From a virus: a stretch of DNA of 20,345 nucleotides. The stretch lies in the IMG/VR virus record IMGVR_UViG_3300047562_003853, positions 1 through 20,345 of that record. One strand, written 5' to 3'. Below, in pieces: positions 2,458 to 18,648 of the stretch. The position numbers and the translations under genes are program-made. Under the pieces are notes generated by a model, which did not search any database, was not told where the DNA came from, and saw only the letters and a list, made by a program, of their open reading frames with translations. The number at the start of each line of letters is the position of its first letter. Position 1 is the stretch's first letter.

Positions 2458-5400
2458 TCAAACCTCCATTAGATACCAGCCTACTTTAGAAGCTGGTGTT
2501 GCTGTATTATTATTTAAGTCAGCTGCAGCAGCGTAAACTAGTGTAAATGCTGCTCGTGGAGTTTGAACTACAAGTTCACCAGCATTTGTTGTATATCCAG
2601 CAAGTGTATCAGTAACACCAGTTAATAATTCAGTACCAGTATTTGTATTATCTCCTTGTACACCAGTGTTATCAGGAGCACGAACAATCATGCTAACAGT
2701 ATTCGAAAGATTTCCACCAATGTCAATAATGTGAACTGTATCTCCCATTTGAGCGTTTGAAGGTAATTTAATGAGTGTATTAGCTGAAGTATCAACAAAA
2801 TAACCAAAGTTTGCTTGTGCAGAAACAACTGAGGTATTTACATATTGCCACCTTCTACCACCACTACTGCTAAAGAAGTTTTCAACACCAGCAATTTTGA
2901 CAGAACCATTATTAGAAACTTTGAATATTTCAGTTCCGTTCGTATTATTGATAGATAACTCAGCATCTGCAGTTGTTTTTCCAGCTCCATCTTGGAAATT
3001 AAGTTCCAAGCCACCATCTGCTTTAATAGAACCTCCAAATGTGCTCAACCCAGTTCCTAAAGCAGAAAGAGATCCGTAAGTAGTAAAATCACCAGAAGAA
3101 TTAACAAATTTCAGAACTTGTGTTGTTCCGTTGTTTTGGAAAATATCAATATTTCCACCATTGATAACTAGATTACCAGTAGCACTATCAACAGAGAATT
3201 TAGTATTAGTACCATCAGTTATTATAAATTTTTGAGTTCCTACGATTGTAGAACCATTTAATGTAATTGAATTTTCTGTAGTTAAAGTTCCAGCAATATT
3301 AGTATTACCATTTGAACCATTTACAGTAAATTTATTATAACCAGCTCCTAAAGCAAGACTACCAAGAGAACTAATATTACCAGTTGTTGATTCTACAACA
3401 AATGTTCTAACCTCAGGATTTGCATCTCCAGTTGTTATAATTAAAGATTGAATATCAGTAGAAATTAATTCCTGAATTGATAAAATTTCATTTCCATCAA
3501 TAAACAGATAATCACTTGTTGTTAACACACCTCCAAATTCAGCAACGCCAATTCTCAAATCCGTATTACTATTAGGCATTCCAGCAGATGGAACATCTAA
3601 ATTACCATCTTGATTTGTATCAATACCCGTTAAATAGCTAGCATTTGGTTGTCTATCAATTTTTGCAATTACTGTATCTTCTGGGTGATTAGTCCATGCT
3701 GTTGTCCCAAATAATCCTCTGGTAACTTCAAGGGCATAGCCACCAGCTGCATTTGGATCAGTTAAATTAATAATTCTAACTACTCTAACTAACTCACTAT
3801 ACTGTTGATTACGGAGACCAGTAGTGTATCCAGGCTGACCAACAACACCAATAGTATCTGGAGAATTGATATTTCCTCTATCAAGAAGAAGTAGATCATC
3901 AATAGAAAAATCAGAAACTGAAGATGTACTAATTGGTAGTACATAATTCACGCCTGGTAAAGTAACATCAGCGATAGTAAATTCAACATCTACTGCACCA
4001 CCATTACCTAATGCAGAATCTGGAATTCTCAATACTTCTGATTGAGCGTACCCACTTCCACGCTCTACAATATCAGTAATTGTAACTCCACCATTATCAT
4101 CAACAACTATATTAAGTAGCAATCCAGATCCAGCTCCTTGTGCTCCAGAATACACTGGAGCAACATTTGGATAAGTTCCAGAATTTCTATTCGAATCTTC
4201 ACCACTTATACCTGTAATAATTACGACTCCACCACCAGCTACCTTGAAAGATTCTCCTCCCCATACACCTTCACCACTAGTATTAACAAATCTTCCTGTA
4301 GAAACATATTTAAATACATCAATATTTTGATTAGAAAGATCTCCAACAGAATGGGTAGAAACTGTTGTTGAGAATCTTCCACGTTGTACTTCTACAATGC
4401 CAGCATTTAATCCACCAATTAATTTGATATTTGAATCAACATTAAGTGAAGATTGTACCTTTAAAGCATTTCTAATAACAGTAGATCCACCAAGACCACC
4501 TAATCTTAAATCTGGACAAGAAGTTGCAATTGATACCTGAGTGTTTAAATCACTAGTAAATAAATCTACTTCAGCAACTCTACTTCTTAATCTTGCAGGA
4601 TTTCCAGTACTTCCTTCAGAATAATAATTACCAATTGTTAATTCACCGTCAAGAATTACATTTTTAGTAGCAATTTTTAATTCACTCACTCTACCAGCTC
4701 CACCAGCAGAGAAAGCTCCACCAATTTCAATATCACAACTGGATGTTACTTCATCTGGAACCGTAGCAATTTTTACTTCGGCATTTGATGATGCATTATG
4801 AATTAATAGTTTTGTTTTTTGTGTCGCAGAAGATCCAATATAAACATCTTGTCCTAGACTTTTTGTTCCAAATTCAATTACTTGGCTAGATGTAGTAGTA
4901 CCAGAAAAAGCTTTTACAACTTGAGCGTCATTTGCAAAGTTTAAATTCTTAACATTTGCTTGAATTAAATTAAAAGTTTCTGATGTACTGTTTACATCTC
5001 CACCATCAACACTAATATCTTTTTCAATTAAGAAGTTTCCAGTAATTCTACCATCACCAATTACAACAAAGTTTCTATCAAGACCAAAAGTATTACTATC
5101 TGCTTTCGTGTTAATACCAACTCTTCCACCAGTTCTATAAGTAATTCCTTGATCTGCTACTACTAAATCAGTTGTAGAAACTCTAAAAGTAGAAAAATCA
5201 TCTGGATTATCACTATCGCCACCAACAATTAATGCGTTATCTTGAGCAGTTTCAGTTTTTGTTGCACTGGGTTCTGTTAAATATGAAAGAATTTTTTTAC
5301 CACTGATAAAAACATTACCAACAACATCTAAGTTTGCTCTTGGATCAACTAAATCAGAAGTAAAACCTCTTAAACAATCACTATGAAGTGATCTAGCTAC

Positions 5401-8400: not shown

Positions 8401-11400
8401 TACAAATTTTTGTAATTGAATTTCTACATCTGGATCAATAGAATCTGTTTCAGGCGAATAAATGTAGATACCAGCTGCAGCATTCTCCTTACTGCTAGCA
8501 AGCATAAATTTAGTTTGATCTGAACCATTGAAAACACTTTGTTTTGTTTGATCTCCAGCAAAACCATAGTTTTCTGGATAGGTATTTCTTCCAGGTGCAA
8601 TAATATAATATTTTTTATTAGTTTCAAATCCATCAGGAAGTCTAATAACTCTCTTATCAGGAATTGTGCCTGGTTTCGCTTTAGGAACAAGTCTTACTGG
8701 TGTTCCTGTTTCAAAGTTTGTTGGATTTCCTCCAGCAAGAGTAAATACAGTTGCCCTTGATGCTAAACTAGAGATATTAATTTCTGGTTCAATTTTTTCT
8801 ACATTATTATCAAGACCAACAGAAAGTATTTGGATAATATCAACAAAATACTGATCAATTGTGCTTGCAATATCATTACATTCTGGAACAGTAGTGTCTT
8901 GAACAAGGGTATCATCTTTAGATACCTCATCAAAAATTCCAGTCAGAAGTTCAAAATACAAATAAGCACTACTAGAAGATAATTTTGCATTTACTACACT
9001 ACCAGAATTTAAGAAAGATCCAATCGAACCTAATTCAATAGTTTGAGAATCAATAATTCGCTTGATATATGTATCAGCTTGAATATTTGTTACGATAGGA
9101 TTTGATCCATCTTTTGGCTTCCCATCCTCAAACGATGTAGATGCATATTCTTGAACTCGCATTCCAATAACAAGACCAGAAGTATCACCAACATTAACTA
9201 CTGCACTGTTTTGTACAGTTGTACAATTTTCAATAAGAAAATCATAATTACGCATTGCAGCAATACAATGATCTTTAGTGTATCGTAAAGCTTCTGTAGT
9301 TTCTGTTAACTCATTTTCAATATAAGTCAATTCTCCAGCTACGTAATAAGATTCTGCAGCTTGAATAGTGTTAATATTTCCACCAAGTCGTAAATCTTTT
9401 ACAACAGCATCTACATAATAACCAATATCTCTTCTACATTTTTCAATGTTTATTGTAGTTTTTTGAGTTAATGTTGGATATTTTCTAGTAATGTATTGAT
9501 AAACTTCGTTTTGAATTAAAATTTTATTGGCTTCAATTCTATTAGCAGAGTCTTGTCTTTTGTTAAATGAACTATCGCTAATAATTTCTGGTGGATTTAA
9601 AATATCCATAGAAACTGTATAAGTTTCAAAACCAGATGGCTCAAGTATAGAATAGAACTTATCAGAACCACCAGAAGATGCTGGATCAAGTTTTACAAAA
9701 AGTCTTTCATCACTTCTAGCGCCAATACGATATCCACCTAAAGATGCTGCAGGTCTATTTGCAGGATTAGTTAAATCATCTCCAGATAAGTATAATTTTG
9801 TTTTATTTGTACTATCATTAGTAGCAAGAATATCAATAGTATAATATGGAATTTTTTCAGAATTTATAGAATCTTTGTTAGGATCATCTACATAACCACC
9901 TACAATCTCTTCTGGAGGAACGATATGAGATATATAACCACCTTTATCTTGATTAAATGAATAACCCTTATGACCAATGGCATGAAGTGAAGTATTACCA
10001 AAGTTTGAGTTCGAGTTGGTGATCGACATGTCACCACCAGACTCCATTAAGAAGTGATCAAAAAATCCAACGGCAAAAACAGAAACACACTGAATAAATG
10101 AATCTTCCGAAGCACGAATATGGAAGTTTCTCCAGTCATCTTTCCAGTATGCATCTCCCTTAGTGTGATAAGGGACAGTTGCAAATGCATCAGTTAATGA
10201 TGCTTCATTCCAGGTGTTAGTAAATCTATCATATCTGATAAATGCTCTATCGTCTTTTTGTAGGGAAACACCAGTGTACTGTGCAACAACCATGGATTTA
10301 AATCCAGTTGCTTTTGCTCCATTTGCCCACATTCCACACTGACCCCATGTAGAACGAATAGAGCAGTTAAAGACATATGGTGATGCTGATTCAACTGAGT
10401 CAATTTCTGCTTGGGCTACACAATTAGTATCAAGACCATTTGATGTTGTGTATACTTGATTATCTACTAGTCCAAACGCACCAGCTACTTTTCCAACAAT
10501 TTCATAAGTAAATACTTTTGGATTTAAATTATCAATGGAAGTAATTTTAACCGTTCCATTTAATTCTTCATCAAGACCAGTATTTAAAATTGCAACATAC
10601 TGACCTTCAAAATATCCATGATTGATTTTTGTAGTAACAGTAAAAGTAACGCCAGTCCCAGTATTAGTTGGTTTGATACTTTCAATAACTCTAGTATCAG
10701 AAAGTGGTCCAACAATTCTATTTTCTTGTACAAGTGGTTCAAATTCACCTTCATCAATAGAAGGTTGATACTTAGAAAATGCTGTACCAACTTTTTCATA
10801 GAAAAGATCTAGATCACTATTATCTGCATATTCCATAATGCAGATTTTATGGTGAGAATATTCTGGAATTTGCTTTTTGCTGCTATCATCAGCTTTATAA
10901 TATACTTCACCAACATTTTTTTGTGTATTAAACAATGGAGAATTTTCTGATAAATCACCATCCTTAATTGTAAATTGCCACAGATAGCATCCACCCGTTA
11001 AATTAAAGATAGAAGTTCTACCTTCATTGCCATCTGCTGGATCTGGTACAAATAATGGGCGAATAATAGTTCTACGAAGATCATAACCAACTAATGAACA
11101 GCCTCTAGGTACAATAGCACCACCAGTAGAAGCATTAAATTTATAAAGTACATTATTAGAATTAGAAAGATCAAGAATGGAGTTATCATCCCATTCTCCA
11201 TTAGTTTGATCAAAATTAAAAATAGGTAAATCCGATTCTAATGTTGGATTTGTTGTTGCAGTATAGTTTACAAGTCCAGGACGATTATCAATATAATGAT
11301 CACCAGGCATCAACATGATGCTAAATTGATCAAATCTATCATTATTTTTACCAGGAAGATAAGAATAACGTGCTACTTCAATAAAAGCTCTTTGAATTGT

Positions 11401-11529
11401 TTTAAATGGTCTTAGAGGAGAATTTCCTCTATTATCTAAAGCATCTGTAGCGTTAAAGTCATCAGGTGAGACATATAGATATTTTCCTGTCTTACTTGAG
11501 TAAAGATTATCAAGTCTTGTAAGAGCCAT
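2458..11529 (-). CDS. Giant virion structural / tail-fibre-like protein (3,023 aa)
   Basis: The start chosen is the ATG of MALTRLDNLYSS. An upstream in-frame TTG (11580) would translate through the TATAAATA late-promoter motif and is rejected. The N-terminus (about residues 10-90: LYVSPDD, RPFKTIQRAFIEVARYSY, IMLMPGDHYID) has the pectate-lyase-like parallel beta-helix style of cyanophage fibre proteins. Residues about 400-560 continue it (STWGQCGMWANGAKATGFKS, HLRV-type turns, SGGDMSITNSNSNFG). A helical patch follows near 690-770 (CRRDIGYYVDAVVKDLRLGG). Residues about 2460-2510 (SGAQGAGSG ... ITDIVERGSGY) form a Gly-rich beta module also seen in the gp5-like protein. Residues about 2650-2890 carry fibre repeats of the F-x-V-x-x-x-TGN-x-x-x-xG type, and the last ~110 residues look like a tip domain (YFVDTSANTLIKLPSNAQ). 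First gene of a late operon. A structural role is well supported; which fibre or appendage is not known. Confidence 0.85.
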   Translation of the reverse strand: MALTRLDNLYSSKTGKYLYVSPDDFNATDALDNRGNSPLRPFKTIQRAFIEVARYSYLPGKNNDRFDQFSIMLMPGDHYIDNRPGLVNYTATTNPTLESDLPIFNFDQTNGEWDDNSILDLSNSNNVLYKFNASTGGAIVPRGCSLVGYDLRRTIIRPLFVPDPADGNEGRTSIFNLTGGCYLWQFTIKDGDLSENSPLFNTQKNVGEVYYKADDSSKKQIPEYSHHKICIMEYADNSDLDLFYEKVGTAFSKYQPSIDEGEFEPLVQENRIVGPLSDTRVIESIKPTNTGTGVTFTVTTKINHGYFEGQYVAILNTGLDEELNGTVKITSIDNLNPKVFTYEIVGKVAGAFGLVDNQVYTTSNGLDTNCVAQAEIDSVESASPYVFNCSIRSTWGQCGMWANGAKATGFKSMVVAQYTGVSLQKDDRAFIRYDRFTNTWNEASLTDAFATVPYHTKGDAYWKDDWRNFHIRASEDSFIQCVSVFAVGFFDHFLMESGGDMSITNSNSNFGNTSLHAIGHKGYSFNQDKGGYISHIVPPEEIVGGYVDDPNKDSINSEKIPYYTIDILATNDSTNKTKLYLSGDDLTNPANRPAASLGGYRIGARSDERLFVKLDPASSGGSDKFYSILEPSGFETYTVSMDILNPPEIISDSSFNKRQDSANRIEANKILIQNEVYQYITRKYPTLTQKTTINIEKCRRDIGYYVDAVVKDLRLGGNINTIQAAESYYVAGELTYIENELTETTEALRYTKDHCIAAMRNYDFLIENCTTVQNSAVVNVGDTSGLVIGMRVQEYASTSFEDGKPKDGSNPIVTNIQADTYIKRIIDSQTIELGSIGSFLNSGSVVNAKLSSSSAYLYFELLTGIFDEVSKDDTLVQDTTVPECNDIASTIDQYFVDIIQILSVGLDNNVEKIEPEINISSLASRATVFTLAGGNPTNFETGTPVRLVPKAKPGTIPDKRVIRLPDGFETNKKYYIIAPGRNTYPENYGFAGDQTKQSVFNGSDQTKFMLASSKENAAAGIYIYSPETDSIDPDVEIQLQKFVLDDDYDLHTYKCTATGIEVETDVAHIFDVPAVGVTPQLIFFRLGDDTSTLPQTASGEVDTNTFYYARYIDKNKFSVHESQSDAIFNIKALNFVTNTGKNFRVYANKRNSPLRFDPTYTDDTNNSGLWYLNVKDDSIDNTQNIISRLQSTIGDYADDSGKIRTNDTWFERVIDNRDKKDRVYRLRYVIPEYLTTVRDPLNGFVLKIRTDDTRRLLPQKITLVPKDDQSPDLAIFFNSNPENANEQLGLTSDEYEGLSIVPSYDPYLLPKTVNSSKTKSRIAFDIQSAFKNDDGNLEIVAFNYSINNQQIKNENLTVVKIKSPQGGSFNAKDFTFDSTTLVTWTGYSSGTGYVHAFLEYESEYYLILKQISGSIKYNKIQATTFEQGSTFADLDAAPDSVGSVDGKSKSDRNDYLYRVAGANAYTLVPGDEITDDADNVYLISQVEDVGEIEDTFYIFDIDEIQERIPGQQDGIYYLTCVKGNISPYPTGAGVGTNFRNFKFSQPISQLYPLNYKNDPLWYKELNTSFNDPPATICAADNYVHGLVRTNDAKNSETKEVIYDLVETAAFGGSSYTLDNKIEARLGNAVSGSEDRLIPIKGDNEYPSQSKVYVELRRPSIARSGNHTFEYLGFGPGNYSTGFPLRQEVILSDLQDFYAQSKKEDGGIVFYTGLNSNGDLYIGNRKINAITGEETFLEKADLLDSNDEDDDLGGALVTTFDTPVTFNNNITVNGESTFNNPILVNVPVDEGTPIRVYSKVDSENGDDITLDRSSYRPFDSGDITLGNNRVKSAIYELTGRSIPGLIGQSYTIRSHFTNSSPSNTTPNQTLELNVNDPTSSRFSATQFVVYGDSEDPKAGDILLKGSEVGRTGSLGWIFASGYTNESAAVDTVVTDGTNKVKINWKGSATNFALNISKSSKIRINGFPNPAINGTWDVDSATYDPAAEEVTIIIGSTISALSYTWQGGSKLEVGNSVWKEAGLLGVEAIRTDTDAIGEYKLGVNTVARSLHSDCLRGFTSDLVDPRANLDVVGNVFISGKKILSYLTEPSATKTETAQDNALIVGGDSDNPDDFSTFRVSTTDLVVADQGITYRTGGRVGINTKADSNTFGLDRNFVVIGDGRITGNFLIEKDISVDGGDVNSTSETFNLIQANVKNLNFANDAQVVKAFSGTTTSSQVIEFGTKSLGQDVYIGSSATQKTKLLIHNASSNAEVKIATVPDEVTSSCDIEIGGAFSAGGAGRVSELKIATKNVILDGELTIGNYYSEGSTGNPARLRSRVAEVDLFTSDLNTQVSIATSCPDLRLGGLGGSTVIRNALKVQSSLNVDSNIKLIGGLNAGIVEVQRGRFSTTVSTHSVGDLSNQNIDVFKYVSTGRFVNTSGEGVWGGESFKVAGGGVVIITGISGEDSNRNSGTYPNVAPVYSGAQGAGSGLLLNIVVDDNGGVTITDIVERGSGYAQSEVLRIPDSALGNGGAVDVEFTIADVTLPGVNYVLPISTSSVSDFSIDDLLLLDRGNINSPDTIGVVGQPGYTTGLRNQQYSELVRVVRIINLTDPNAAGGYALEVTRGLFGTTAWTNHPEDTVIAKIDRQPNASYLTGIDTNQDGNLDVPSAGMPNSNTDLRIGVAEFGGVLTTSDYLFIDGNEILSIQELISTDIQSLIITTGDANPEVRTFVVESTTGNISSLGSLALGAGYNKFTVNGSNGNTNIAGTLTTENSITLNGSTIVGTQKFIITDGTNTKFSVDSATGNLVINGGNIDIFQNNGTTQVLKFVNSSGDFTTYGSLSALGTGLSTFGGSIKADGGLELNFQDGAGKTTADAELSINNTNGTEIFKVSNNGSVKIAGVENFFSSSGGRRWQYVNTSVVSAQANFGYFVDTSANTLIKLPSNAQMGDTVHIIDIGGNLSNTVSMIVRAPDNTGVQGDNTNTGTELLTGVTDTLAGYTTNAGELVVQTPRAAFTLVYAAAADLNNNTATPASKVGWYLMEV

Positions 11530-11569
11530 AATTACCGAAACCCTGGGCTGCGTGTATTCTTCTTCAAAG

Positions 11570-11577
11570 TATTTATA
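11570..11577 (-). promoter_or_regulatory. T4-type late promoter TATAAATA
   Basis: On the minus strand this reads TATAAATA, a perfect match to the T4 late promoter element used by a gp55-type sigma factor. It lies just after the terminator hairpin and about 40 nt before the ATG of the giant fibre gene, giving an expected leader of roughly 30-35 nt. It is the only perfect copy I noticed in the window's intergenic DNA, and it decides the start of the giant gene. Confidence 0.8.
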
Positions 11578-11580
11578 CAA

Positions 11581-11604
11581 TAAAGCCTCCCTGTTAAGGA
11601 GGCT
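11581..11604 (-). terminator. Hairpin terminator closing the tRNA island
   Basis: On the minus strand the arms AGCCTCC and GGAGGCT form a perfect 7-bp GC-rich stem around a 7-nt loop (TTAACAG), followed by a short T-rich run (TTTATT). It sits between tRNA-Asn and the late promoter of the giant gene, so it would stop island transcripts before the late operon. The U tract is short, so termination may be partial. Confidence 0.65.
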
Positions 11605-11629
11605 CTATCGCACACGGAAGGGTAGGTTC

Positions 11630-11645
11630 TTGGCAGTATCGCCAA
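11630..11645 (-). other. Hairpin abutting the tRNA-Asn 3' end
   Basis: The minus-strand arms TTGGC and GCCAA pair around a 6-nt loop (GATACT), starting immediately after the tRNA discriminator base. Five base pairs could arise by chance, but hairpins at the same place follow four other tRNAs here. Possibly a processing signal or 3'-end protector. Confidence 0.45.
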
Positions 11646-11717
11646 CTCCACAGCCTGGATTCGAACCAGGGACCAAGTGATTAACAGTCACCGACTCTAC
11701 CGCTGAGCTACTGTGGA
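11646..11717 (-). tRNA. tRNA-Asn (GUU)
   Basis: 72 nt. Acceptor TCCACAG pairs with CTGTGGA, discriminator G. D arm GCTC-AGCGGTA-GAGT; anticodon stem GGTGA/TCACT with loop CTGTTAA (anticodon GTT); T arm has the canonical GGTTCGAAT loop. CCA is not encoded (the next bases are TTG). Last tRNA of the island in transcription order; 4 nt separate it from the hairpin at the end of orf46. Confidence 0.96.
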
Positions 11718-11721
11718 ATAT

Positions 11722-11745
11722 AAGTCAAAAACTATCTTTTGACTT
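11722..11745 (-). other. 9-bp hairpin over the orf46 stop, just 5' of tRNA-Asn
   Basis: The minus-strand arms AAGTCAAAA and TTTTGACTT form a perfect 9-bp stem with a 6-nt loop. The stem contains the TGA of orf46, and its 3' end lies 4 nt before tRNA-Asn. There is no T-run, so it looks more like a processing or stability element than a terminator. Confidence 0.5.
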
Positions 11746-11865
11746 AATTTTAACCCACTGCAAAAGATTTAAATATTCAAAGCGATTATCTTCATCTTTT
11801 TTTTCAATTAATGCCTCAAGTGCTTCGATAACCATTTCGTGATCTTTTTTAGAAAGTAACGTCAT
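11725..11865 (-). CDS. Small hypothetical protein, orf46 (46 aa)
   Basis: The reading frame starts MTLLSKKDHEMVIEALEALI and ends QWVKIKSKDSF, between tRNA-Leu(UAG) and tRNA-Asn. A good Shine-Dalgarno, GAGG, stands 7 nt before the ATG, which is the main reason to accept so short a gene. The chain is almost wholly helical in character: an amphipathic first helix (residues 6-22), a charged turn (EKKDEDNR), then a second helix (FEYLNLLQWVKI). It resembles the many small helical-hairpin proteins of T4-like cyanophages, but I cannot assign a function. No membrane segment or Cys motif. The stop codon is inside a 9-bp hairpin. Upstream, CTATAAAAATC could serve as an AT-rich promoter element, though no -35 partner is clear. 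Confidence 0.7.
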   Translation of the reverse strand: MTLLSKKDHEMVIEALEALIEKKDEDNRFEYLNLLQWVKIKSKDSF

Positions 11866-11935
11866 TTTCTTACCTCGACTTTTTGGCGATTTTTATAGCG
11901 GAGAATTTTTTCCCCGTTTAGTGGATTTGAAAAAC

Positions 11936-11956
11936 GAATTTGAAAAAATCAAATTC
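11936..11956 (-). other. 8-bp hairpin 1 nt after tRNA-Leu(UAG)
   Basis: The arms GAATTTGA and TCAAATTC form a perfect 8-bp stem with a 5-nt T loop on the minus strand (5 A on plus), 1 nt after the tRNA 3' end. Same arm and loop size as the hairpin after tRNA-Leu(UAA). No T-run follows. Confidence 0.55.
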
Positions 11957-11957
11957 A

Positions 11958-12039
11958 TGTCGATGAGAGGACTTGAACCTCCACGTCCGAAGACACTGGA
12001 ACCTAAACCCAGTGCGTCTACCAATTCCGCCACATCGAC
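11958..12039 (-). tRNA. tRNA-Leu (UAG)
   Basis: 82 nt, class II. Acceptor GTCGATG/CATCGAC, discriminator A; D arm with the Leu-type GGCGGAATTGGTAGACGC signature; anticodon arm CTGGG-TTTAGGT-TCCAG (anticodon TAG); long variable arm; T loop TTCAAGT. CCA is not encoded. It lies between orf70 and orf46. Confidence 0.96.
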
Positions 12040-12042
12040 ATA

Positions 12043-12255
12043 CTATGGGTTTGAACTTACAAAAGCATTAATGACTTCTGCTTGCTTCAAAACTTTTCGT
12101 AGAGATGGAAACTCTGGAAGGTCCATCTTAACTTGGTTCATAGAATTTTCATTCCATGTTCTTGCAAAGTCATAATCAACGCAGAACTCATCGTTCAACA
12201 TATTATATGCTTGCTTGAAAATTTCGAAACGAAGTTCGTAAGGTGTTTTACTCAT
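12043..12255 (-). CDS. Conserved-type small cyanophage protein, orf70 (70 aa)
   Basis: Starts MSKTPYELRFEIFKQAYNML and ends VLKQAEVINAFVSSNP. From memory, a family of small T4-like cyanophage proteins begins MSKTPYEIR and ends with a helix leading to an xLNxFVSN-type tail; this protein fits both ends, with a shortened middle (PEFPSLRKV corresponds to the usual Pro/Phe-rich linker). No function is known to me. The open frame extends upstream to 12327, but that would read through the tRNA-like element, so the ATG at 12255 is preferred. The upstream region is a purine-rich AAGAGAAAAAC without a classic Shine-Dalgarno. It ends 3 nt before tRNA-Leu(UAG), so gene and tRNA are probably on one transcript. 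Confidence 0.75.
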   Translation of the reverse strand: MSKTPYELRFEIFKQAYNMLNDEFCVDYDFARTWNENSMNQVKMDLPEFPSLRKVLKQAEVINAFVSSNP

Positions 12256-12282
12256 TGTTTTTCTCTTGTGTGTTTGTGTGTT

Positions 12283-12355
12283 ACCCCTGGCTGGGAATCG
12301 AACCCAGTTCCCATGTGTGTTGTCCACCCGTCCTTACCAATAGACCACGCAGGGG
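12283..12355 (-). pseudogene. tRNA-like element, degenerate anticodon arm
   Basis: Length (73 nt), T arm (CTGGG-TTCGATT-CCCAG) and acceptor (CCCCTGC/CCAGGGG, six pairs plus a C-C mismatch, discriminator T) are tRNA-like, and the D region (GGTCTATTGGTAAGGAC) looks like Glu/Gln tRNAs. The anticodon arm does not fold: canonical positions give GGTGG opposite ACATG and a loop ACAACAC that lacks U33. The only local hairpin is GTG-GACAACA-CAC, shifted from the standard register. I cannot assign an amino acid. It may be a decayed or recombinant tRNA, or a tRNA mimic with another role. Confidence 0.6.
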
Positions 12356-12516
12356 GAGTGACCCCTCTGTTTGAGCATCATCTGGCGTCCCAGGATAGGC
12401 TTGAGGGGTGTTGCTGATGGAGTAAGCGTAATATACCTCAAGGATATAACAGAGACTTACCCTCTATCTACGACGCTACGGAAGATACCCGTAGTAGAAG
12501 TTGGTATTACTACCAA
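12356..12516 (-). other. Structured intergenic region with several inverted repeats
   Basis: No credible gene lies between tRNA-Thr and the tRNA-like element. Instead, the 161 nt hold several small inverted repeats: TTGGTA/TACCAA (12501-12516), CTACGG/CCGTAG with a 7-nt loop (12476-12494), AGAG/CTCT (12451-12465), a bulged ATATCC/GGTATAT (12431-12447) and a long-range 7-bp ACCCCTC/GAGGGGT (12361-12409) enclosing CTGG/CCAG. This could be spacer RNA with processing signals, remains of lost tRNAs, or a small structured RNA. No TTCRA T-loop signature was found. Confidence 0.4.
12501..12516 (-). other. Hairpin abutting the tRNA-Thr 3' end
   Basis: Perfect 6-bp stem, TTGGTA and TACCAA, with tetraloop GTAA on the minus strand, starting directly after the tRNA-Thr discriminator. 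No T-run. Confidence 0.5.
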
Positions 12517-12590
12517 AGCCTACGGTCGGACTTGAACCGACGACCTACGGTTTACAAAACCGTTGCTCTATCCAGCTGAGCTACACAGGC
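12517..12590 (-). tRNA. tRNA-Thr (UGU)
   Basis: 74 nt. Acceptor GCCTGTG/CGTAGGC (two G-U pairs), discriminator T; D arm GCTCAGCTGGATAGAGC; anticodon loop TTTGTAA (anticodon TGT) on an ACGGT/ACCGT-type stem; T arm GTCGG-TTCAAGT-CCGAC. CCA is not encoded. Its first 10 nt overlap the end of cpeT, including the cpeT stop codon. Confidence 0.95.
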
Positions 12591-13105
12591 ATTCTTGCAA
12601 ATTCAAATCTACCATATTTAGATCCCCAAATTTGATGATTATGCTTAACACATATCCCTTTATCTATAACATAATAAAAATTCTTAGTCAATTCAACATT
12701 AGTTTGAAGATAAGTTTCTCTACCTCTCCAGTTTACAAAACATTCGCATCCAGTGGTTCCTCCAATAAAACTTTCGTTTACATATTCAAATATGGTATCA
12801 CATCCTTCTTTTTTTGTCAACTGGTTTCTAGTCAATAATTCTAAATTTTTTCCATTCCTATAATTTTGTTTATCAAGAATTTCATAATTTAAAACAGTAA
12901 TTTTATTATTAGATAAAATTGGTTCTAAAACAAATTGACGATAAGGAAGACCTGGTTGATAATTATAAGCTTGTTCACCATAGTATAACCCATCACCTAT
13001 ATCTATATGAGTAATGTTTATATGTGCATAACGACTTGGATACGAAAATGCTTGTATTTTGTTACTAAATTTTCCAGAAAGATATTGTTTAAAAAGTTCA
13101 ATCAT
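12581..13105 (-). CDS. cpeT: CpeT/CpcT-family phycobiliprotein lyase (174 aa)
   Basis: CpeT/CpcT (T-type) lyases attach or chaperone phycobilins for conserved cysteines of phycobiliprotein beta subunits. The family pattern is present along the whole chain: YLSGKFSNKIQAF (8-20), a YAHINITHIDI strand, then GLYYGEQAYNYQPGLPYRQF with the conserved PYRQ, then LELLTRNQLTKKEGCD, TTGCECFVNWRGRETYLQTN, and the C-terminal D-x-G ... WGS-x-x-G-x-FEF motif. Length is normal for the family. The ATG overlaps the end of orf90 by 8 nt, implying translational coupling. The last 10 nt, with the stop, lie inside tRNA-Thr. CpeT proteins are known from Prochlorococcus phages. With pebS in the same operon it probably handles phycoerythrobilin; the target protein cannot be read from sequence. 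Confidence 0.93.
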   Translation of the reverse strand: MIELFKQYLSGKFSNKIQAFSYPSRYAHINITHIDIGDGLYYGEQAYNYQPGLPYRQFVLEPILSNNKITVLNYEILDKQNYRNGKNLELLTRNQLTKKEGCDTIFEYVNESFIGGTTGCECFVNWRGRETYLQTNVELTKNFYYVIDKGICVKHNHQIWGSKYGRFEFARMPV

Positions 13106-13370
13106 CTGTTGGTAATAAATTAGGATTATCTACATCAATTTGAAACATCAGTGGATGTGCTTCTTCTGTTACCAAATAACTAGAACACAAATAAAGATCT
13201 TCATCAGTATAATCTCTACTGGCGAGAGCTTCTGTTTGTATTGTTGGATGATCTTGTACAATTTGAGGAAGCTCATCAAAAGTATATGGCATTCCTTGTA
13301 TAAAGTACATTCTCACAACTTGCCCCATGTAGAAACAATATGATTGAGTGAGTTTGTACTTGTATTTCAT
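13098..13370 (-). CDS. Hypothetical protein between pebS and cpeT, orf90 (90 aa)
   Basis: I do not recognise this protein. It starts MKYKYKLTQSYCFYMGQVVR and is rich in Tyr, Met and acidic residues, with a short hydrophobic patch (YFIQGMPYTF) and an acidic C-terminus ending in NPNLLPTDD. It has two Cys, no evident signal peptide and no membrane segment. It starts 1 nt after the pebS stop and overlaps cpeT by 8 nt, so it is almost certainly co-translated with both pigment genes. That position suggests, without proving, a role linked to bilin synthesis, transfer or the lyase. It could equally be an unrelated small phage protein caught in the operon. Confidence 0.75.
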   Translation of the reverse strand: MKYKYKLTQSYCFYMGQVVRMYFIQGMPYTFDELPQIVQDHPTIQTEALASRDYTDEDLYLCSSYLVTEEAHPLMFQIDVDNPNLLPTDD

Positions 13371-13371
13371 T

Positions 13372-14016
13372 TTACTCTACCTTTGCGTAAGAAAACAAAA
13401 AATTATTTACATAATTCTTTGCGAATTCTTTACCAAATCTTATTTCCATAAATCCAATAACTGGATCTAATTTATGCATATAAGTGTCAAAATCTATGAA
13501 TTCGTTTTCTTCATTGTTAATTGGTTTACTACTATCTAGTAATTTATTATAGACTTTTACATATTTTGTAAAATCTTCTAAGTAATTATCTACTTCATGT
13601 ATAGTACATTTTTTAACGTAGATATATCTAGAAAAATGATTTCCTGGTTGAAAAAATCTAATGTCCTTAGTTATACCAGCATAATCTTTTAATGATTCTT
13701 CAACAATCGAATGATTGAAGTCATAATTTTCAGTTGGATGCTGGAAATCAAAAACAATGATAACTTTTTTCTCCATAAAAGCCATAAGATCTATACCAAA
13801 ACATGGCAAATTTTTACCAGTTTTTGGATAAATTATATTATTGTAAATATATTCATTTTCACCAGATTCAACATAAGTTTCTCTGGACTTTAAAATATAT
13901 TTTCCAGTATATAATTTAGATTCTAATTTAGAATCTTTATTTGAATGATTACTGGAATGAATTACATTCATATCCAAAGTATCATATAAAATGTTTTTGT
14001 AATTATTCCAAATCAT
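13372..14016 (-). CDS. pebS: Phycoerythrobilin synthase PebS (ferredoxin-dependent bilin reductase, 214 aa)
   Basis: PebS reduces biliverdin IX-alpha in two ferredoxin-dependent steps to phycoerythrobilin. The core closely follows P-SSM2 PebS as I recall it: IWNNYKNIL (2-10), TGKYILKSRE (37-46), IYPKTGKNLPCFGIDLM (62-78), KKVIIVFDFQHP (83-94), FFQPGNHFSRYIYV (121-134), DFDTYMHKLDP (175-185) and NFLFSY at the end. The two catalytic aspartates (Asp105 and Asp206 in P-SSM2 PebS) correspond to D76 and D184. The protein is about 20 residues shorter than P-SSM2 PebS (233 aa), lacking its N-terminal lead and part of the following loop. The start is the ATG before IWNNY; the frame stays open upstream, but only through tRNA-Leu. 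No clear Shine-Dalgarno. First gene of pebS-orf90-cpeT. PcyA or PebA is less likely given the PebS-like core. Confidence 0.93.
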   Translation of the reverse strand: MIWNNYKNILYDTLDMNVIHSSNHSNKDSKLESKLYTGKYILKSRETYVESGENEYIYNNIIYPKTGKNLPCFGIDLMAFMEKKVIIVFDFQHPTENYDFNHSIVEESLKDYAGITKDIRFFQPGNHFSRYIYVKKCTIHEVDNYLEDFTKYVKVYNKLLDSSKPINNEENEFIDFDTYMHKLDPVIGFMEIRFGKEFAKNYVNNFLFSYAKVE

Positions 14017-14030
14017 ACAAATAAAGTAGT

Positions 14031-14051
14031 CAACAATACTATTTATTGTTG
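14031..14051 (-). other. 8-bp hairpin 2 nt after tRNA-Leu(UAA), in the pebS leader
   Basis: The arms CAACAATA and TATTGTTG form a perfect 8-bp stem with loop AATAG on the minus strand. It lies between the tRNA 3' end (2 nt away) and the pebS ATG (14 nt away), so it could act in tRNA 3' processing, pebS mRNA 5' stability, or both. Confidence 0.55.
14040..14047 (-). promoter_or_regulatory. Possible late-promoter-like motif before pebS
   Basis: Reads AATAAATA on the minus strand, one mismatch from TATAAATA, 23 nt before the pebS ATG. It overlaps the hairpin above, so its AT-rich match may be incidental. Weak evidence. Confidence 0.25.
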
Positions 14052-14053
14052 AA

Positions 14054-14138
14054 TAGGGACGGGGGGACTTGAACCCCCACGGGCTTAATGCCCAACAGAT
14101 TTTAAGTCTGGTGTGTCTACCGATTCCACCACATCCCC
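14054..14138 (-). tRNA. tRNA-Leu (UAA)
   Basis: 85 nt, class II. Acceptor GGGGATG/CGTCCCT, discriminator A; Leu-type D arm (GGTGGAATCGGTAGACAC); anticodon arm CCAGA-CTTAAAA-TCTGT (anticodon TAA); variable arm stem GGGC/GCCC; T arm GGGGG-TTCAAGT-CCCCC. CCA is not encoded. Preceded by a terminator-like hairpin and followed by the 14031-14051 hairpin. Confidence 0.96.
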
Positions 14139-14157
14139 AAAAAAAGCCTTTCGGCTT
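14139..14157 (-). terminator. Rho-independent-type terminator before tRNA-Leu(UAA)
   Basis: On the minus strand, AAGCC-GAAA-GGCTT is a 5-bp stem closed by a GNRA tetraloop and followed by five more T (seven T in a row in all). It sits 5 nt upstream of tRNA-Leu(UAA), so it would limit transcription from the island promoter into pebS-cpeT. The upstream GGCTT at 14188-14192 could compete for the AAGCC arm. Confidence 0.6.
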
Positions 14158-14239
14158 GTATATGAATCCAAACCATGAACAACGAGGAAGCCTAAACCTC
14201 GCTTCGACAAGCTTAACACAGAATGCTAGGCTTGTCAAG
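14158..14239 (-). promoter_or_regulatory. Leader with possible promoter and competing hairpins
   Basis: Between tRNA-Met and the terminator hairpin the minus strand carries TTGACA (14233-14238), a 17-nt spacer and a weak -10, TAAGCT (14210-14215). GACAAGC/GCTTGTC (14206-14236) pair starting 3 nt after tRNA-Met. Two mutually exclusive stems follow: CGAGG/CCTCG (14183-14201) and GAAGC/GCTTC (14187-14205). A GGCTT at 14188-14192 can also pair with the terminator's 5' arm. Together this resembles an attenuator, but that is inference. Confidence 0.35.
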
Positions 14240-14312
14240 TGCAGGTTGTGGGGATCGAACCCACCTTAGCCGAATTATGAGTTCGGTGCTTTCGCCAGAG
14301 AGCTAAACCTGC
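14240..14312 (-). tRNA. tRNA-Met (CAU)
   Basis: 73 nt. Acceptor GCAGGTT/AACCTGC, discriminator A; anticodon arm CCGAA-CTCATAA-TTCGG (anticodon CAT); T arm GTGGG-TTCGATC-CCCAC. The D stem is weak (GCTC/AAGC). The paired first acceptor base and the lack of three consecutive G-C pairs in the anticodon stem favour an elongator Met tRNA; a lysidine-modified Ile tRNA is unlikely because a tRNA-Ile(UAU) lies next to it. CCA is not encoded. Confidence 0.93.
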
Positions 14313-14318
14313 AACAGG

Positions 14319-14390
14319 TAGGACCGCCGAGAATTGAACTCGGTTCTGCCGCTTATAAGGCGACGGCTTTAACCAATAAGCAACGGTCCC
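14319..14390 (-). tRNA. tRNA-Ile (UAU)
   Basis: 72 nt. Acceptor GGGACCG/CGGTCCT, discriminator A; D arm GCTT-ATTGGTTA-AAGC; anticodon arm GTCGC-CTTATAA-GCGGC (anticodon TAT, reading AUA); T arm CCGAG-TTCAATT-CTCGG. CCA is not encoded. Six nt separate it from tRNA-Met, so the two are probably cut from one precursor. Confidence 0.95.
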
Positions 14391-14396
14391 ATGAAC

Positions 14397-14417
14397 TGAT
14401 ACGAGCCTATCGTATCA
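14397..14417 (-). other. 8-bp hairpin at the orf43 stop, 6 nt before tRNA-Ile
   Basis: The arms TGATACGA and TCGTATCA form a perfect 8-bp stem with loop TAGGC on the minus strand. The first three bases are the TGA of orf43. There is no T-run, which argues against simple termination and fits a cleavage or stability signal separating the mRNA from the tRNAs. Confidence 0.55.
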
Positions 14418-14546
14418 TATTCGTCCTGTTGCTGTCAAGCGGTTCTTTAAGGCTTGCCTACGCTTCCTAGCATCCCTCAAAGCTTGTGGTTTGAGGTGCC
14501 TTTTCTGTTCTTTTTTACTATGATGTTGCCAATTTGGAACAGTCAT
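14415..14546 (-). CDS. Small highly basic protein, orf43 (43 aa)
   Basis: The chain starts MTVPNWQHHSKKEQKRHLKP and contains 13 Lys/Arg and 3 His against only 2 acidic residues. From about residue 20 (QALRDARKRRQALKNRL) it looks like one basic helix. The ATG has a strong Shine-Dalgarno, GAGG 7 nt upstream, and promoter elements just before it; longer TTG-started versions would overlap the promoter and are rejected. The base composition is visibly more GC-rich than the adjoining structural genes, which may mean a different origin. A nucleic-acid-binding role is likely from charge alone. I do not recognise a family; any likeness to ribosomal protein bS21 is compositional only. It leads the tRNA transcript. 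Confidence 0.7.
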   Translation of the reverse strand: MTVPNWQHHSKKEQKRHLKPQALRDARKRRQALKNRLTATGRI

Positions 14547-14569
14547 TAGACTTCCTCGACCTGTGTATG

Positions 14570-14577
14570 TATTTATG
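14570..14577 (-). promoter_or_regulatory. Late-promoter-like motif overlapping the sigma70 -10
   Basis: Reads CATAAATA on the minus strand, one mismatch from TATAAATA, and overlaps the TACCAT -10 element, so one site could be used by both host and phage late RNA polymerase forms. It lies 23 nt before the orf43 ATG. Confidence 0.35.
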
Positions 14578-14603
14578 GTAGCACGCCAATCCTGTGCTGT
14601 CAA
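14575..14603 (-). promoter_or_regulatory. Sigma70-type promoter for orf43 and the tRNA island
   Basis: Minus-strand TTGACA (14598-14603, perfect -35), a 17-nt spacer and TACCAT (14575-14580, 4 of 6 to TATAAT). It precedes the Shine-Dalgarno and ATG of orf43 and is the first promoter after the needle gene, so it probably drives orf43, tRNA-Ile and tRNA-Met. Confidence 0.55.
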
Positions 14604-14662
14604 CCCCCTTGACAAATCCCAAGAACCTGAGTAGGATGGCTCTGTCAGGGTTCAGAATCATT

Positions 14663-15742
14663 CTATGCATTTAAATATATCTGTTTACCTTGTATCTGTA
14701 CTTTAGCAGTAGCTTTAATATCAATATTTTTTCTAGCAGTGGCTACTATATCTCCAGCTACAGAATCTATATTAATATTAGAAGAAGATTTAATTTTAAT
14801 AGAATCTTTTTCAGATGGTCCTACATCAAGAACATATGTTTCTAATTGATCTTGACTTTCAGATCTTCCAAATATTTTTTCAGTTTTCTTTCCAATAATT
14901 TCTTCATATGAATTTCCTTTAAACTTAGCAGCATATCCTGCTTTACCAGAAAGTAAAACATTACCATCACTACTTAATTGGAAATCTTTTCTTACAGCTA
15001 CTCTATATTCACCGTTAACGACATAATTAATTCCTCCAATAGTATTAACTGTAGTTAATGCAGCAGGATTTTGCTTTTGATTAACTGTTACTTCACCAGC
15101 TCCATCAGTATATTTTCCTCCAGTAATAGTTTCATTTAAAAATGATGTATTAAGATTGTAATCATTTGTTATTACGTTTACTTTTCCTCCACCTTCTCCA
15201 GCTTCAAGATTAATCATTTCTCCAGCTTTTAAAGTCAATACATTAGCAGCATTTATAGTAATATTGGAACCACCAAGAACTATTTCTCCTCCTTTGGATT
15301 CAATTGCTACATCTCCTTCAACAAATAAAGAATATGCTGGAGTCTTTTCTACCTCTTCTTTACCACCATTATTTGTTTTAGTTCTTTCATTATCGTTTCC
15401 TTTTACATGAATAGATACTGATCTAGAAGTTTCCATTCTATCATCAGCTTTTATAATTACTTTACCTCCACAACCACTTTGTCCTGTTTTACCAGAAGCT
15501 AGTATAATATTTCCAGCTGAATCAAAATGAAAAATTGATTGTCCATTGGTTAAAATATAACCACTAGATCCATCTTTATTTGTATATGTTCCCATTGTCC
15601 AGCCATGCTGAGTAGCTAATACATGGAAATCATCATTACATATTTGACCTTCTTCTAATTCTTCTTTTCTTCCATCTGTTGGGTTAGCAACAGAGTCTAC
15701 CTTTACATTTGAAGGTTTTTGTGTGTAGGAATCTTTTGACAT
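14663..15742 (-). CDS. Baseplate central spike/needle protein, gp5 C-terminal-like beta-helix (359 aa)
   Basis: The C-terminal third is a run of short beta repeats (about residues 310-359: SIKIKSSSNINIDSV, KNIDIKATAKVQIQGKQIYL) of the I-x-I-x-[AG] type that forms the triple-stranded beta-helix of T4 gp5C and VgrG spikes. Residues about 40-95 (GWTMGTYTNKDGSSGYILTN, SIFHFDSAGNIILASG) and 140-190 (GDVAIESKGGEIVLGGSNIT) continue the repeat pattern. The ATG overlaps the stop of the gp5-like gene (TAATG), so translation is coupled; a TTG three codons earlier is ignored. No lysozyme domain. It probably forms or extends the membrane-piercing needle with the gp5-like hub protein. T4 makes these parts as one polypeptide that is later cleaved. 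Fold assignment is good; exact assembly is inferred. Confidence 0.75.
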   Translation of the reverse strand: MSKDSYTQKPSNVKVDSVANPTDGRKEELEEGQICNDDFHVLATQHGWTMGTYTNKDGSSGYILTNGQSIFHFDSAGNIILASGKTGQSGCGGKVIIKADDRMETSRSVSIHVKGNDNERTKTNNGGKEEVEKTPAYSLFVEGDVAIESKGGEIVLGGSNITINAANVLTLKAGEMINLEAGEGGGKVNVITNDYNLNTSFLNETITGGKYTDGAGEVTVNQKQNPAALTTVNTIGGINYVVNGEYRVAVRKDFQLSSDGNVLLSGKAGYAAKFKGNSYEEIIGKKTEKIFGRSESQDQLETYVLDVGPSEKDSIKIKSSSNINIDSVAGDIVATARKNIDIKATAKVQIQGKQIYLNA

Positions 15743-18648
15743 TATGGACAATCAATATATTTACCAGTACCAATTTTAGCATAACCAAGTCTTTCTAACT
15801 CAGTAGTTTCTAGACACGAGAGATTTGGTATAACTCTAGCTCCAGATCCACCACCACCAATAATAATTATTTCGGGAATTGATTCGTAACTAATAGTTCT
15901 ATCTAAAGATTCAACACTAGTTACATATCCATCTTCATTTATAATTGCTCTAGCAACATTTGAATTGCCATCAACATAAACTTCAGGTGCTTCAATATAT
16001 TTTTTACCTGGTGATAATAATGTAAATGAATCAATAATACAAATTAAATTAGTAGTTTTAGGTGTATTTCTAGTATAATTAATTCCATTTCTAGTCAATC
16101 TTATTTCAGAAACGAACCCATTATTATTTAACAATGCTATACCAGTGGCTCCATAACCTTCTCCTGTTATAATAACAGTAGGTGGTTTTTCGTAGGGAGA
16201 TCCTGGATTATCTATTGGTATGTCAATAATTTCCCCATCATCTGTAGTAACAGGATCATTTACTGTTGGCTTTTCATATGTTGGAACATCTACTACTGGA
16301 TCTTCTACTATTCCAGTATCTTTTTGATTTGCTTTAATAGTAAGATCTACAAATCTGGAAGTATTTTCTACAACAAAAGTAAAAGATTCTTCATCTTCTA
16401 TATTAGTATCTTCAGCAATACCTAAAATTATTTTAGCTTTATTTGATATTACTTGAAAAGATCCACTTAAAGTATTGCTAATAAAATCAGATGGTGTAAT
16501 TTTAGATCCAAATATTGTATAATTAAATTCAGTTCCATCAATAATATTGGTAGTTTCAAATGTAATCATTACATCTTCGCCTTCATTATATACCGATTTA
16601 TCTGCATATAATTTATAAGTTGGTAATTGCTCTGTAACTATTTCTTCAAATTGAGCAGTAATAATAACATCAGCAAATTCTCCAGACTCATCTAAAGTAA
16701 ATGTTAATAATTCAGAACTTTCTATTGTACTATCATTAGCTATTTCAATATAAACTTCAGCTTTATTTGACATTATTGTTAATGTCCCAGTCAAAGATTC
16801 TGTGTTTAAATCAGATAATTCTATATTATTTCCAGATAAAGTATAATTTAATACAGTCTGATCAGATACATTTGTAGTGTTAATAGTATATTTTATTGTT
16901 TCACCTTCTGAATATAAACGTTTGTCTGTGATAACTTCATAAGTTGATAATGATGTTGGAATTTCTGGAACAGGATCTAATGGAGTGTTTGGAGTTTCTG
17001 GCGAAGGATTATTTGTAGTTGGTGTTGGAACATCAACTTCTTCGATTGGTTCTTCATCTGGTAAATCTTGATCAGATTCTGGTAAAAAATCTTTTCCAAT
17101 ACTTTCGTCATCTGTTACAGCTGTTGGTACAGATGGTGTAGATGAACTAGGTGAAGGATCTTTAAATATTCCTCCAATAAATTGTACACTAGTTTTTTTC
17201 TTTTTAGGATTTTTCTTTGCCTCATCACAAATTCCAGAAGAACTATATAATTCTCCATCTTCTATGGCTGCAATTAATTTATCTAAATCATCTTGATTAG
17301 ATTCTACAGAGCAATCTGTACATTTAACTTGAATTTTTTCACACTGCTCTTCTGGTCCTGTGCAAGAAATTCCAAGAAGACTTAATATTTTATTGATTAC
17401 ACTCCCAATAAGATTAAGAGGAGATTCTATAAATGATAATAATTCCTGTATTGGTCCTAATACAGTATTTACTAATGTATCTAATAAAGATAATATTTGA
17501 TTTAAAATTCCATCAATTAAACTATCAATTAAACAAGTAGCATTATTAAATGCATCCATTAAATATCCTAATAACAAATCAGTTAACCATTGAGCTATTT
17601 TATCTGTTAGATCTTCAATAGTACATCCTAATTCTTTAAAAATTTCATCAAATATTTTTTTGACTGCTTTTAATCTATTTCCTTTCTCACGTATCGGTTT
17701 GAAAGCTTTTTCTGGATCAGCTAATGGTCCAGTATTTCCAATAATTGCTCCTTCTGGATCTTCAGTTAGTAATGCTGCATCAATTAATTTTTTAATTGCT
17801 TCTTTCAATTGTTTAATAATTTCTCCTTTTATTCTCGCTATAAAAGATTTTACTAATCTAATAACTCTACCAATGTGATATCTAGCAATCTCCTCCGCAT
17901 CATATAGTAATCCATTTACTTTACTAACATAATATGTTCCAATATTTCCAGAAGATGCTTGGTTTGCTGCAAAAAAATCTCCCATTATTCTAGTTAAACC
18001 AGACTTAAGATTTTTATCTTGTCCGCATTTTGGATTTGCAATAACATTACAAATTTTTCCACCAATTGGATTAGTTTCTGTATTATTTGCCAATGCAGCT
18101 GCTAAAATTGGAGGAGCTCCACCTGGTTTATTTGATTTTGTTGCTGCAGGAAGACCACCATTTACATTAGCTTTTGTTTTCGGATCTTTTCCATCTTGCG
18201 ATTCCAAAGATCTATTTTGTTGTGGATTTACTTTTGGATCTGTGTATGTAGTAAAACTTTTTTCAGGACTACCTGGATTTGGATCTTTATTTTCTACTTC
18301 AGTTGCTCCAGCTGTATGACCAATAGATCCCATGATAATTGGTTTTTGCTTATCATTATCTAAGTAAAAACCAATTACCCAATTTCCTTGATTTAATCCT
18401 ACAGAAGCACCAGTAACTCCACCATCAGAAAATGGTGTGGTTACTGGTAGCATAACTTGAGCCCAAGGTAATTGATCAGTTGGAGTTATATCTCCAGATT
18501 TTAAGTGCTGACCAACAATACGTACACGATACCTACCAGAATTCTTAGGATCATCACCTTTTTTGCTTTCAACTTGTCCTACCCACCAGTTGAAACCATC
18601 TGATCCTATTTGATGTATTGGAAATAGCGAAGATAATACTGGATCCAT
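15742..18648 (-). CDS. gp5-like baseplate hub protein with OB-fold and Calx-beta-like repeats (968 aa)
   Basis: Residues about 20-115 match the T4 gp5 N-terminal OB-fold: NWWVGQVES, GRYRVRIVGQH, DQLPWAQVMLPVT, GVTGASVGLNQGNWVIGFYL, IIMGSIG. A Pro/Gly linker follows, then a long amphipathic helical stretch (about 235-435), a Cys cluster (ISC, EEQC, KCTDC) and an acidic Pro/Ser/Thr linker (490-565). Two ~95-residue Calx-beta-like repeats come next (about 566-664 and 676-772), both with EGE, TTN, NYT and SNKA positions shared. Two Gly-rich beta modules of the P-x-V-x-I-x-G-x-G-x-GA type end the chain (about 800-950). No T4-type lysozyme is visible where gp5 has one. It follows the gp27-like gene by 16 nt without a clear Shine-Dalgarno. 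Hub role is well supported; the repeats' role is unknown. Confidence 0.82.
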   Translation of the reverse strand: MDPVLSSLFPIHQIGSDGFNWWVGQVESKKGDDPKNSGRYRVRIVGQHLKSGDITPTDQLPWAQVMLPVTTPFSDGGVTGASVGLNQGNWVIGFYLDNDKQKPIIMGSIGHTAGATEVENKDPNPGSPEKSFTTYTDPKVNPQQNRSLESQDGKDPKTKANVNGGLPAATKSNKPGGAPPILAAALANNTETNPIGGKICNVIANPKCGQDKNLKSGLTRIMGDFFAANQASSGNIGTYYVSKVNGLLYDAEEIARYHIGRVIRLVKSFIARIKGEIIKQLKEAIKKLIDAALLTEDPEGAIIGNTGPLADPEKAFKPIREKGNRLKAVKKIFDEIFKELGCTIEDLTDKIAQWLTDLLLGYLMDAFNNATCLIDSLIDGILNQILSLLDTLVNTVLGPIQELLSFIESPLNLIGSVINKILSLLGISCTGPEEQCEKIQVKCTDCSVESNQDDLDKLIAAIEDGELYSSSGICDEAKKNPKKKKTSVQFIGGIFKDPSPSSSTPSVPTAVTDDESIGKDFLPESDQDLPDEEPIEEVDVPTPTTNNPSPETPNTPLDPVPEIPTSLSTYEVITDKRLYSEGETIKYTINTTNVSDQTVLNYTLSGNNIELSDLNTESLTGTLTIMSNKAEVYIEIANDSTIESSELLTFTLDESGEFADVIITAQFEEIVTEQLPTYKLYADKSVYNEGEDVMITFETTNIIDGTEFNYTIFGSKITPSDFISNTLSGSFQVISNKAKIILGIAEDTNIEDEESFTFVVENTSRFVDLTIKANQKDTGIVEDPVVDVPTYEKPTVNDPVTTDDGEIIDIPIDNPGSPYEKPPTVIITGEGYGATGIALLNNNGFVSEIRLTRNGINYTRNTPKTTNLICIIDSFTLLSPGKKYIEAPEVYVDGNSNVARAIINEDGYVTSVESLDRTISYESIPEIIIIGGGGSGARVIPNLSCLETTELERLGYAKIGTGKYIDCP

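Follow-up and report, generated by a model that had tools for sequence, protein, structure and literature searches.

Putative orphan relatives of AbiF antitoxin RNAs at tRNA boundaries in a hypervariable cargo hotspot of T4-like cyanophages

The stretch of DNA analysed here, hereafter the window, is a virus fragment of 20,345 bases (IMG/VR record IMGVR_UViG_3300047562_003853) whose principal genes all lie on the minus strand in the order tail protein, gp5-like hub, baseplate/tail-lysozyme, an island of small genes and RNAs, giant short-tail-fibre, short tail fibre and tail collar. The island, which is also entirely on the minus strand, had been predicted from the sequence to hold 6 tRNAs, a tRNA-like element, 4 small open reading frames (ORFs), pebS and cpeT, and all of them were found between the baseplate and giant fibre genes (Table 1), the 6 tRNAs being accepted as scoring above the Rfam gathering threshold, at 11646-11717 (Asn-GTT), 11958-12039 (Leu-TAG), 12517-12590 (Thr-TGT), 14054-14138 (Leu-TAA), 14240-14312 (Met-CAT) and 14319-14390 (Ile-TAT). 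In addition, 3 conserved non-coding modules (module A, RNA B and RNA C) occupy positions 12355-12500, next to the tRNA-like element, called D here. These small RNAs, and above all the relation of B and C to the AbiF systems of cyanobacterial hosts, are the main subject of this study.

Table 1. Features of the island and its two flanks, from high to low position in the window
Feature	Position	Strand	Evidence
Baseplate hub/tail lysozyme-like (needle) gene, 362 aa; upstream flank, kept across loci	14663..15751	-	phrog_4540, 2e-97
Small ORF, 66 aa	14415..14615	-	phrog_3309, 2e-15; relatives with homologues at same place
Promoter-like site TTGACA-17-TACCAT, island head	14575..14603	-	10/12 matches
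Second promoter-like site	14438-14409	-	10/12 matches
tRNA-Ile(TAT)	14317..14390	-	Rfam
tRNA-Met(CAT)	14239..14312	-	Rfam
tRNA-Leu(TAA), hotspot backbone tRNA	14053..14139	-	Rfam; recurrence across loci
pebS, phycoerythrobilin synthase, variable cargo	13372..14016	-	PF05996 (Fe_bilin_red), 3e-22
GC730 ORF, 90 aa, invariable cpeT partner	13098..13370	-	phrog_4134, 3e-40
cpeT, bilin lyase-like	12581..13105	-	PF06206, 3e-35; CpcT structure 4o4o, 6e-23
tRNA-Thr(TGT), backbone tRNA	12517..12590	-	Rfam; recurrence across loci
Module A, short hairpin	12469..12500	-	8 core copies in fetched loci
RNA B, relative of RNA preceding second AbiF subtype in hosts	12416..12468	-	Phage-copy model R3, 81.7 bits
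RNA C, orphan abiF antitoxin RNA (by homology)	12355..12414 (Rfam core 12361-12408)	-	Host-only model R2, 49.4 bits; RF03085, 32.6 bits
RNA D, conserved non-decoding tRNA-like RNA (by sequence), GACAA pentaloop	12283..12356	-	R1, 89.2 bits; covariation, 55 sequences
Small ORF, 70 aa, no family match	12043..12255	-	ORF call and family searches
tRNA-Leu(TAG), backbone tRNA	11957..12040	-	Rfam; recurrence across loci
Small ORF, 46 aa	11725..11865	-	Homologues at same place in Sf-FR1, L016, L017
tRNA-Asn(GTT), backbone tRNA	11645..11718	-	Rfam; recurrence across loci
Giant short-tail-fibre gene; downstream flank, kept across loci	2458..11580	-	phrog_4527; ORF 5' end 11580

RNA C lies directly 5' of D and, with 32.6 bits, misses the gathering cut-off of the Rfam abiF RNA family (RF03085, 37 bits), which is exceeded by 10 close phage relatives. 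As a host set we used 399 genomes from the order to which Synechococcus sp. WH 5701 belongs. The abiF RNAs that stand beside AbiF in these hosts also score just 29-34 bits with RF03085, so that the cut-off, judged by sequence, excludes true picocyanobacterial members. A gene-blind abiF RNA search of the 399 genomes, 12 of which contain Abi_2 above cut-off, gave 3 matches, each just upstream of an Abi_2 toxin gene, and a permissive scan placed an abiF RNA upstream of 9 of 10 host AbiF loci. RNA C has the conserved stem, the AGC/GCU inner stem and the CAAA stretch of abiF RNA; the host and phage copies agree outside the Rfam motif as well (AACACC...GCCT...ATGC-CAAACAG...GGTCACT) and differ by paired changes (C-G to T-A, G-C to A-T). 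When a covariance model (R2) made of only 7 host RNAs upstream of picocyanobacterial AbiF genes was run over 100 phage loci, the window was the top match (49.4 bits), with E 7e-13 over all loci and 1.6e-14 for the window by itself.

In contrast to the host copies, RNA C does not stand upstream of an Abi_2 gene. An abiF RNA was found in 18 of 20 D-bearing phage contigs, always as a single copy, and an Abi_2 protein in none of these contigs, in none of 10 complete cyanophage genomes and not in the window; a tblastn search of the fetched loci also yielded no Abi_2 gene or fragment. By homology, RNA C is an orphan abiF antitoxin RNA. A third AbiF type of the host order was seen at 2 loci (L255, L256), where the RNA upstream is a weaker abiF-like one (29 bits) with a different inner sequence.

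RNA B is a hairpin RNA of 53 nt between module A and RNA C, separated from the latter by 1 nt, of which 38 copies were collected; no Rfam family matched this stretch. The model of its phage copies found 59-61 bit matches in 3 of the 399 host-order genomes and none in the others, and in all 3 an AbiF-type frame starts about 70 nt downstream. One host has this frame intact (Abi_2 6e-48; HEPN-type motif RNRCAHH); in Cyanobium sp. Cruz CV13-4-11 it carries a frameshift, and in the remaining genome it is truncated. The RNA has been kept at both loci with the damaged gene behind it (L274 and L275, from G029:C2 and G201:C4). The intact locus is the sole one of the 10 AbiF loci without an Rfam abiF RNA. 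Host and phage copies of RNA B reach the same fold through replacement of the whole stem (GGUAAG/CUUACU in phage, CUCAAG/CUUGAG in host), and across the alignment 99.5% of the cells are paired, with 8 pairs showing double changes and none of 500 shuffles being as good. RNA B thus shows what is expected of a second-subtype antitoxin RNA: in hosts an Abi_2 gene follows it immediately, and in phage its fold is preserved. Since the B-type and C-type AbiF toxins are only 27% identical, the window, on this homology, carries relatives of the RNA antitoxins for 2 different AbiF subtypes.

The tRNA-like element D was called tRNA-Leu-CAA (12283-12355) by ARAGORN, with an Rfam tRNA score of only 24.4 bits, below the 29-bit cut-off. 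Its pattern recurs in 116 IMG/VR stretches and in GenBank phages, where the copies are unannotated; an exact search of GTDB contigs gave no match, and none was found in the 399 host-order genomes, which is weak evidence of absence given that scoring was limited to 12 candidates per genome. A comparison of 55 distinct copies shows near-fixed D and T arms and a covarying acceptor stem, while the "anticodon" arm forms a stem with a bulged A closed by the pentaloop GACAA, 4 of its 5 pairs showing double changes (in 6, 6, 28 and 19 sequences). The stem required for a regular 7-nt loop is paired in 60% of cells versus 87.6% for the pentaloop stem, and D does not show the seven-base anticodon loop with U33 on a regular five-pair stem of a decoding tRNA. 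An identity as tRNA-Leu was rejected on these grounds. Because of the pentaloop, the bulged stem, the covariation and the poor fit of the 7-nt loop, D is best described, from its sequence, as a conserved and widespread non-decoding tRNA-like RNA. GACAA is also the loop of the boxB RNA of phage P22, which adopts a GNRA-like fold and is bound by a peptide (PMC12550061). From its position we would guess that D serves as a processing mark. One contig contains 2 copies of D, 1.1 kb apart, with differing anticodon-arm variants (L130 and L133).

The placement of these RNAs is regular. Each of the 35 phage abiF RNAs checked stops 0-4 nt short of a tRNA (Leu, Gly, Arg, Met or Ile) or, in the window, of D; at a random array position such an abutment has a chance of 0.9%. 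Most copies of RNA B likewise have a tRNA no more than 4 nt downstream, or else RNA C. Module A folds as a hairpin with too little variation to test covariation. One or more of these small RNAs occur in the isolates S-CREM1, S-RIM32, S-RIM8, S-SRM01 and S-SZBM1.

Further non-coding elements were seen in related arrays. Module E (L017:10936-10981, L070:2481-2526, L071:4493-4538, L112:1230-1275, L141:7400-7445) has a fixed core, TTGCGCTGGAAAGATAAACCAGAATGCCG, enclosed by a terminal stem whose two strands both differ between copies (TTACCAC/GTGGTAA, TTGCTAC/GTAGCAA, CATCAT/GTGATG), and was not found in 299 host-order genomes. Two more are recurrent and non-coding: module F (L070:3653-3696, L083:1388-1432), which adjoins tRNA-Val in 10 of 11 copies, and module G (L016:7605, L059:3722, L076:6875), directly 5' of D. 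In S-CREM1 a manA RNA (L276:5242-5456; record 10215-10429) fills the gap between tRNA-Leu and tRNA-Asn to the base, these tRNAs ending at 10213 and starting at 10429; Rfam classes it as a cis-regulatory element, and it may be a free-standing array RNA like the abiF RNA.

We consider it probable that RNAs B and C are orphan antitoxin decoys against 2 host AbiF systems, processed from the tRNA array. The array would be transcribed during infection as a single long RNA, in which RNase P would cut at the 5' end of the next tRNA (D in the window), setting the 3' end of the decoy and freeing the small RNAs. Once released, RNAs B and C would bind the host AbiF proteins (Abi_2, HEPN ribonucleases) and hold them inactive, and the infected cell would thereby avoid growth stop or death, the tRNA array doubling as a carrier of small decoy RNAs. 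Several points weigh against this proposal. Co-transcription, expression, processing, binding and neutralisation are inferred from sequence and position; just some 3% of the sampled host-order genomes contain AbiF; the B-linked toxin is damaged in 2 of its 3 host loci; and the phage contigs are related, so the counts overstate independence. Moreover, the energies of B, C and D folded as single sequences cannot be told apart from those of shuffles (z about -0.9 to -1.4), and the structure claims therefore rest on covariation.

Other explanations must be weighed against the decoy proposal. The island could be a plain cargo and tRNA hotspot in which tRNA genes are recombination points and the non-coding modules, rather than decoys, are spacers or remnants, and indeed the flanks are constant, the content varies, the hotspot was already known and the module junctions coincide with tRNA ends; a spacer, however, would not preserve base pairs between host and phage, nor be found as a single copy in each of 18 contigs out of 20, and we regard this explanation as unlikely. 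Less probable still is that the phages lost an AbiF toxin and that the antitoxin RNA of this remnant addiction module persists by inertia or guards against toxin-bearing sister phages. One RNA family does occur in both host and phage, and AbiF-type systems are found in prophages of other bacteria (PMC12373285), but the lack of any Abi_2 gene or fragment in the 30 phage records, or by tblastn in the fetched loci, speaks against such a loss, as do 2 different subtypes side by side, each at a tRNA boundary.

The modules might also be conserved 5' leaders that aid the folding or cutting of the downstream tRNA, their likeness to AbiF-associated RNA arising because AbiF recognises RNA of this kind. 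Their exact contact with tRNA 5' ends and the GACAA loop of D, a known protein-binding pentaloop, fit this idea, yet many tRNAs of the arrays have no such module, and B and C are each specifically tied to an AbiF-type gene in hosts; we find it the most improbable of the three. A broader form of the decoy proposal holds that cyanophage tRNA arrays are general RNA counter-defence libraries, in which modules A, B, C, D, E, F and G would each counter its own RNA-guarded host toxin as decoy or antitoxin, with the tRNAs as the RNase P marks by which the modules are freed. This extension is tentative, and we would put it at somewhat below even chances; if true, the modules of unknown role would point to unknown host defences.

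Known systems offer partial parallels. In C. difficile an RNA with the abiF motif (RCd22) inactivates AbiF in trans by direct binding (PMC12373285). RNA C shares motif and fold with such AbiF/abiF RNA systems (RF03085), whose host copies precede an Abi_2 gene, and differs from them as a single, toxin-less copy at a tRNA boundary. An abiF RNA of the same family was reported beside tRNA-Gly in the related cyanophage S-CREM1, without a link to host AbiF or a role, and RNAs B and D of that phage were not annotated (PMC9964418). By analogy, the decoys may be likened to pseudo-ToxI of phage PhiTE, an RNA mimic of the antitoxin ToxI with which the phage escapes the protein-RNA toxin-antitoxin system ToxIN (Blower et al. 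2012; PMC3475682); pseudo-ToxI, however, arose in rare escape mutants, whereas the cyanophage elements are standing, widespread, related to AbiF antitoxins and located in tRNA arrays. Within the literature searched, outside which most subscription papers and preprints fell, there is no description of the match to host antitoxins, of a second antitoxin family represented by RNA B, of the constant abutment to tRNAs or of RNA D.

The presence of tRNA arrays in phages has long called for an explanation, and part of this one resembles a scaffold for delivering and processing RNA antidotes to abortive infection. This reading gives a testable role to an abiF RNA reported unexplained in a cyanophage and adds RNA B, which is not in Rfam, as a candidate RNA antitoxin for a second AbiF subtype. 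If it is true, orphan RNA modules in phage tRNA arrays could be used as bait for finding host defence genes.

The original prediction had taken the island for a mobile or hypervariable hotspot, to be checked by alignment across relatives and to be given up if gene order proved invariant among them. This alignment comprised 20 loci from isolates and IMG/VR contigs, 19 of them with both flanks; the IMG/VR relatives were retrieved with an alignment of 4 flank proteins, a single-protein flank query having given none. Gene order was not invariant: both flanks are conserved while the content between them varies, with 1.9 to 7.1 kb separating the flank matches. Hypervariability was thereby borne out at a site already known, as Sullivan et al. 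2010 list "near gp5 with tRNAs" as one of four cyanophage hot-spots (PMC3037559). The window resembles that hot-spot in the vicinity of gp5, the tRNAs, cpeT and the sporadic cargo, and adds pebS as a further cargo variant; the non-coding modules are not described in the portions of that paper available to us.

The GC730-cpeT pair is present in all 20 loci, everything else being variable, and tRNA-Leu-TAA, tRNA-Thr, tRNA-Leu-TAG and tRNA-Asn recur around it in most of them, so that by sequence comparison the locus is the known hypervariable cargo hotspot of T4-like cyanophages, with cargo swapped into a stable backbone. The variable cargo includes pebS, pcyA (Sf-CH3 locus), several 2OG-Fe(II) oxygenases, glutaredoxin, SAICAR synthetase (Syn1 locus) and differing tRNA/RNA modules; a 2OG-Fe(II) oxygenase adjoins the fibre gene in S-PM2 and S-RIM32, and the window has none there. 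Mobility, the other half of the prediction, has less in its favour, given the constant GC730-cpeT pair and recurrent tRNAs and the absence of a recombinase-like match among the island ORFs in family searches, flanking attachment repeats not having been searched for. The suggestion that tRNAs act as exchange points agrees with the junctions at tRNA ends and with some inserted genes adjoining tRNA-Thr, but selection for RNA processing is no worse than recombination as an explanation of the RNA-module junctions, and the compared loci revealed no recent exchange event.

The position of pebS also differs between loci: it lies between tRNA-Leu-TAA and GC730 in the window, after cpeT in L055-L057 and after tRNA-Thr in L054. 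The closest solved structure to the window PebS is a cyanophage phycoerythrobilin synthase (2vck, 5e-52). In a tree, with moderate support, this copy falls outside the other hotspot PebS copies, against a common origin of all of them, and separate gains of pebS are therefore likely, not proven.

The island had also been credited with its own promoter and terminator. A promoter is plausible from the 2 sites at its head, each with 10 of 12 matches, although promoter-like sites in total are not above chance (18 versus 13.5 ± 4.1 in shuffled sequence). Directly before the fibre gene the sequence shows a GC-rich hairpin with a tail rich in T, which the terminator scan does not flag. This hairpin is followed by TTTATTGTATAAATA, an arrangement that we take to resemble a terminator followed by a late promoter of the T4 type. 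The true start of the giant fibre protein is probably an ATG near 11526 rather than the ORF end at 11580, because the S-PM2 protein starts at the equivalent methionine.

Two observations concern nucleases at related loci. Proteins of cyanophages at the hotspot (L010:5966-6493, L015:4435-4989) are annotated as "DNA endonuclease V"; Pfam, in contrast, matches them to 2OG-Fe(II) oxygenase families. In phage DSL-LC03 an HNH endonuclease gene (L277:3452-3862) stands just upstream of the tRNA-like element D, before a tail fibre gene, and homing endonucleases could drive exchange at this locus.

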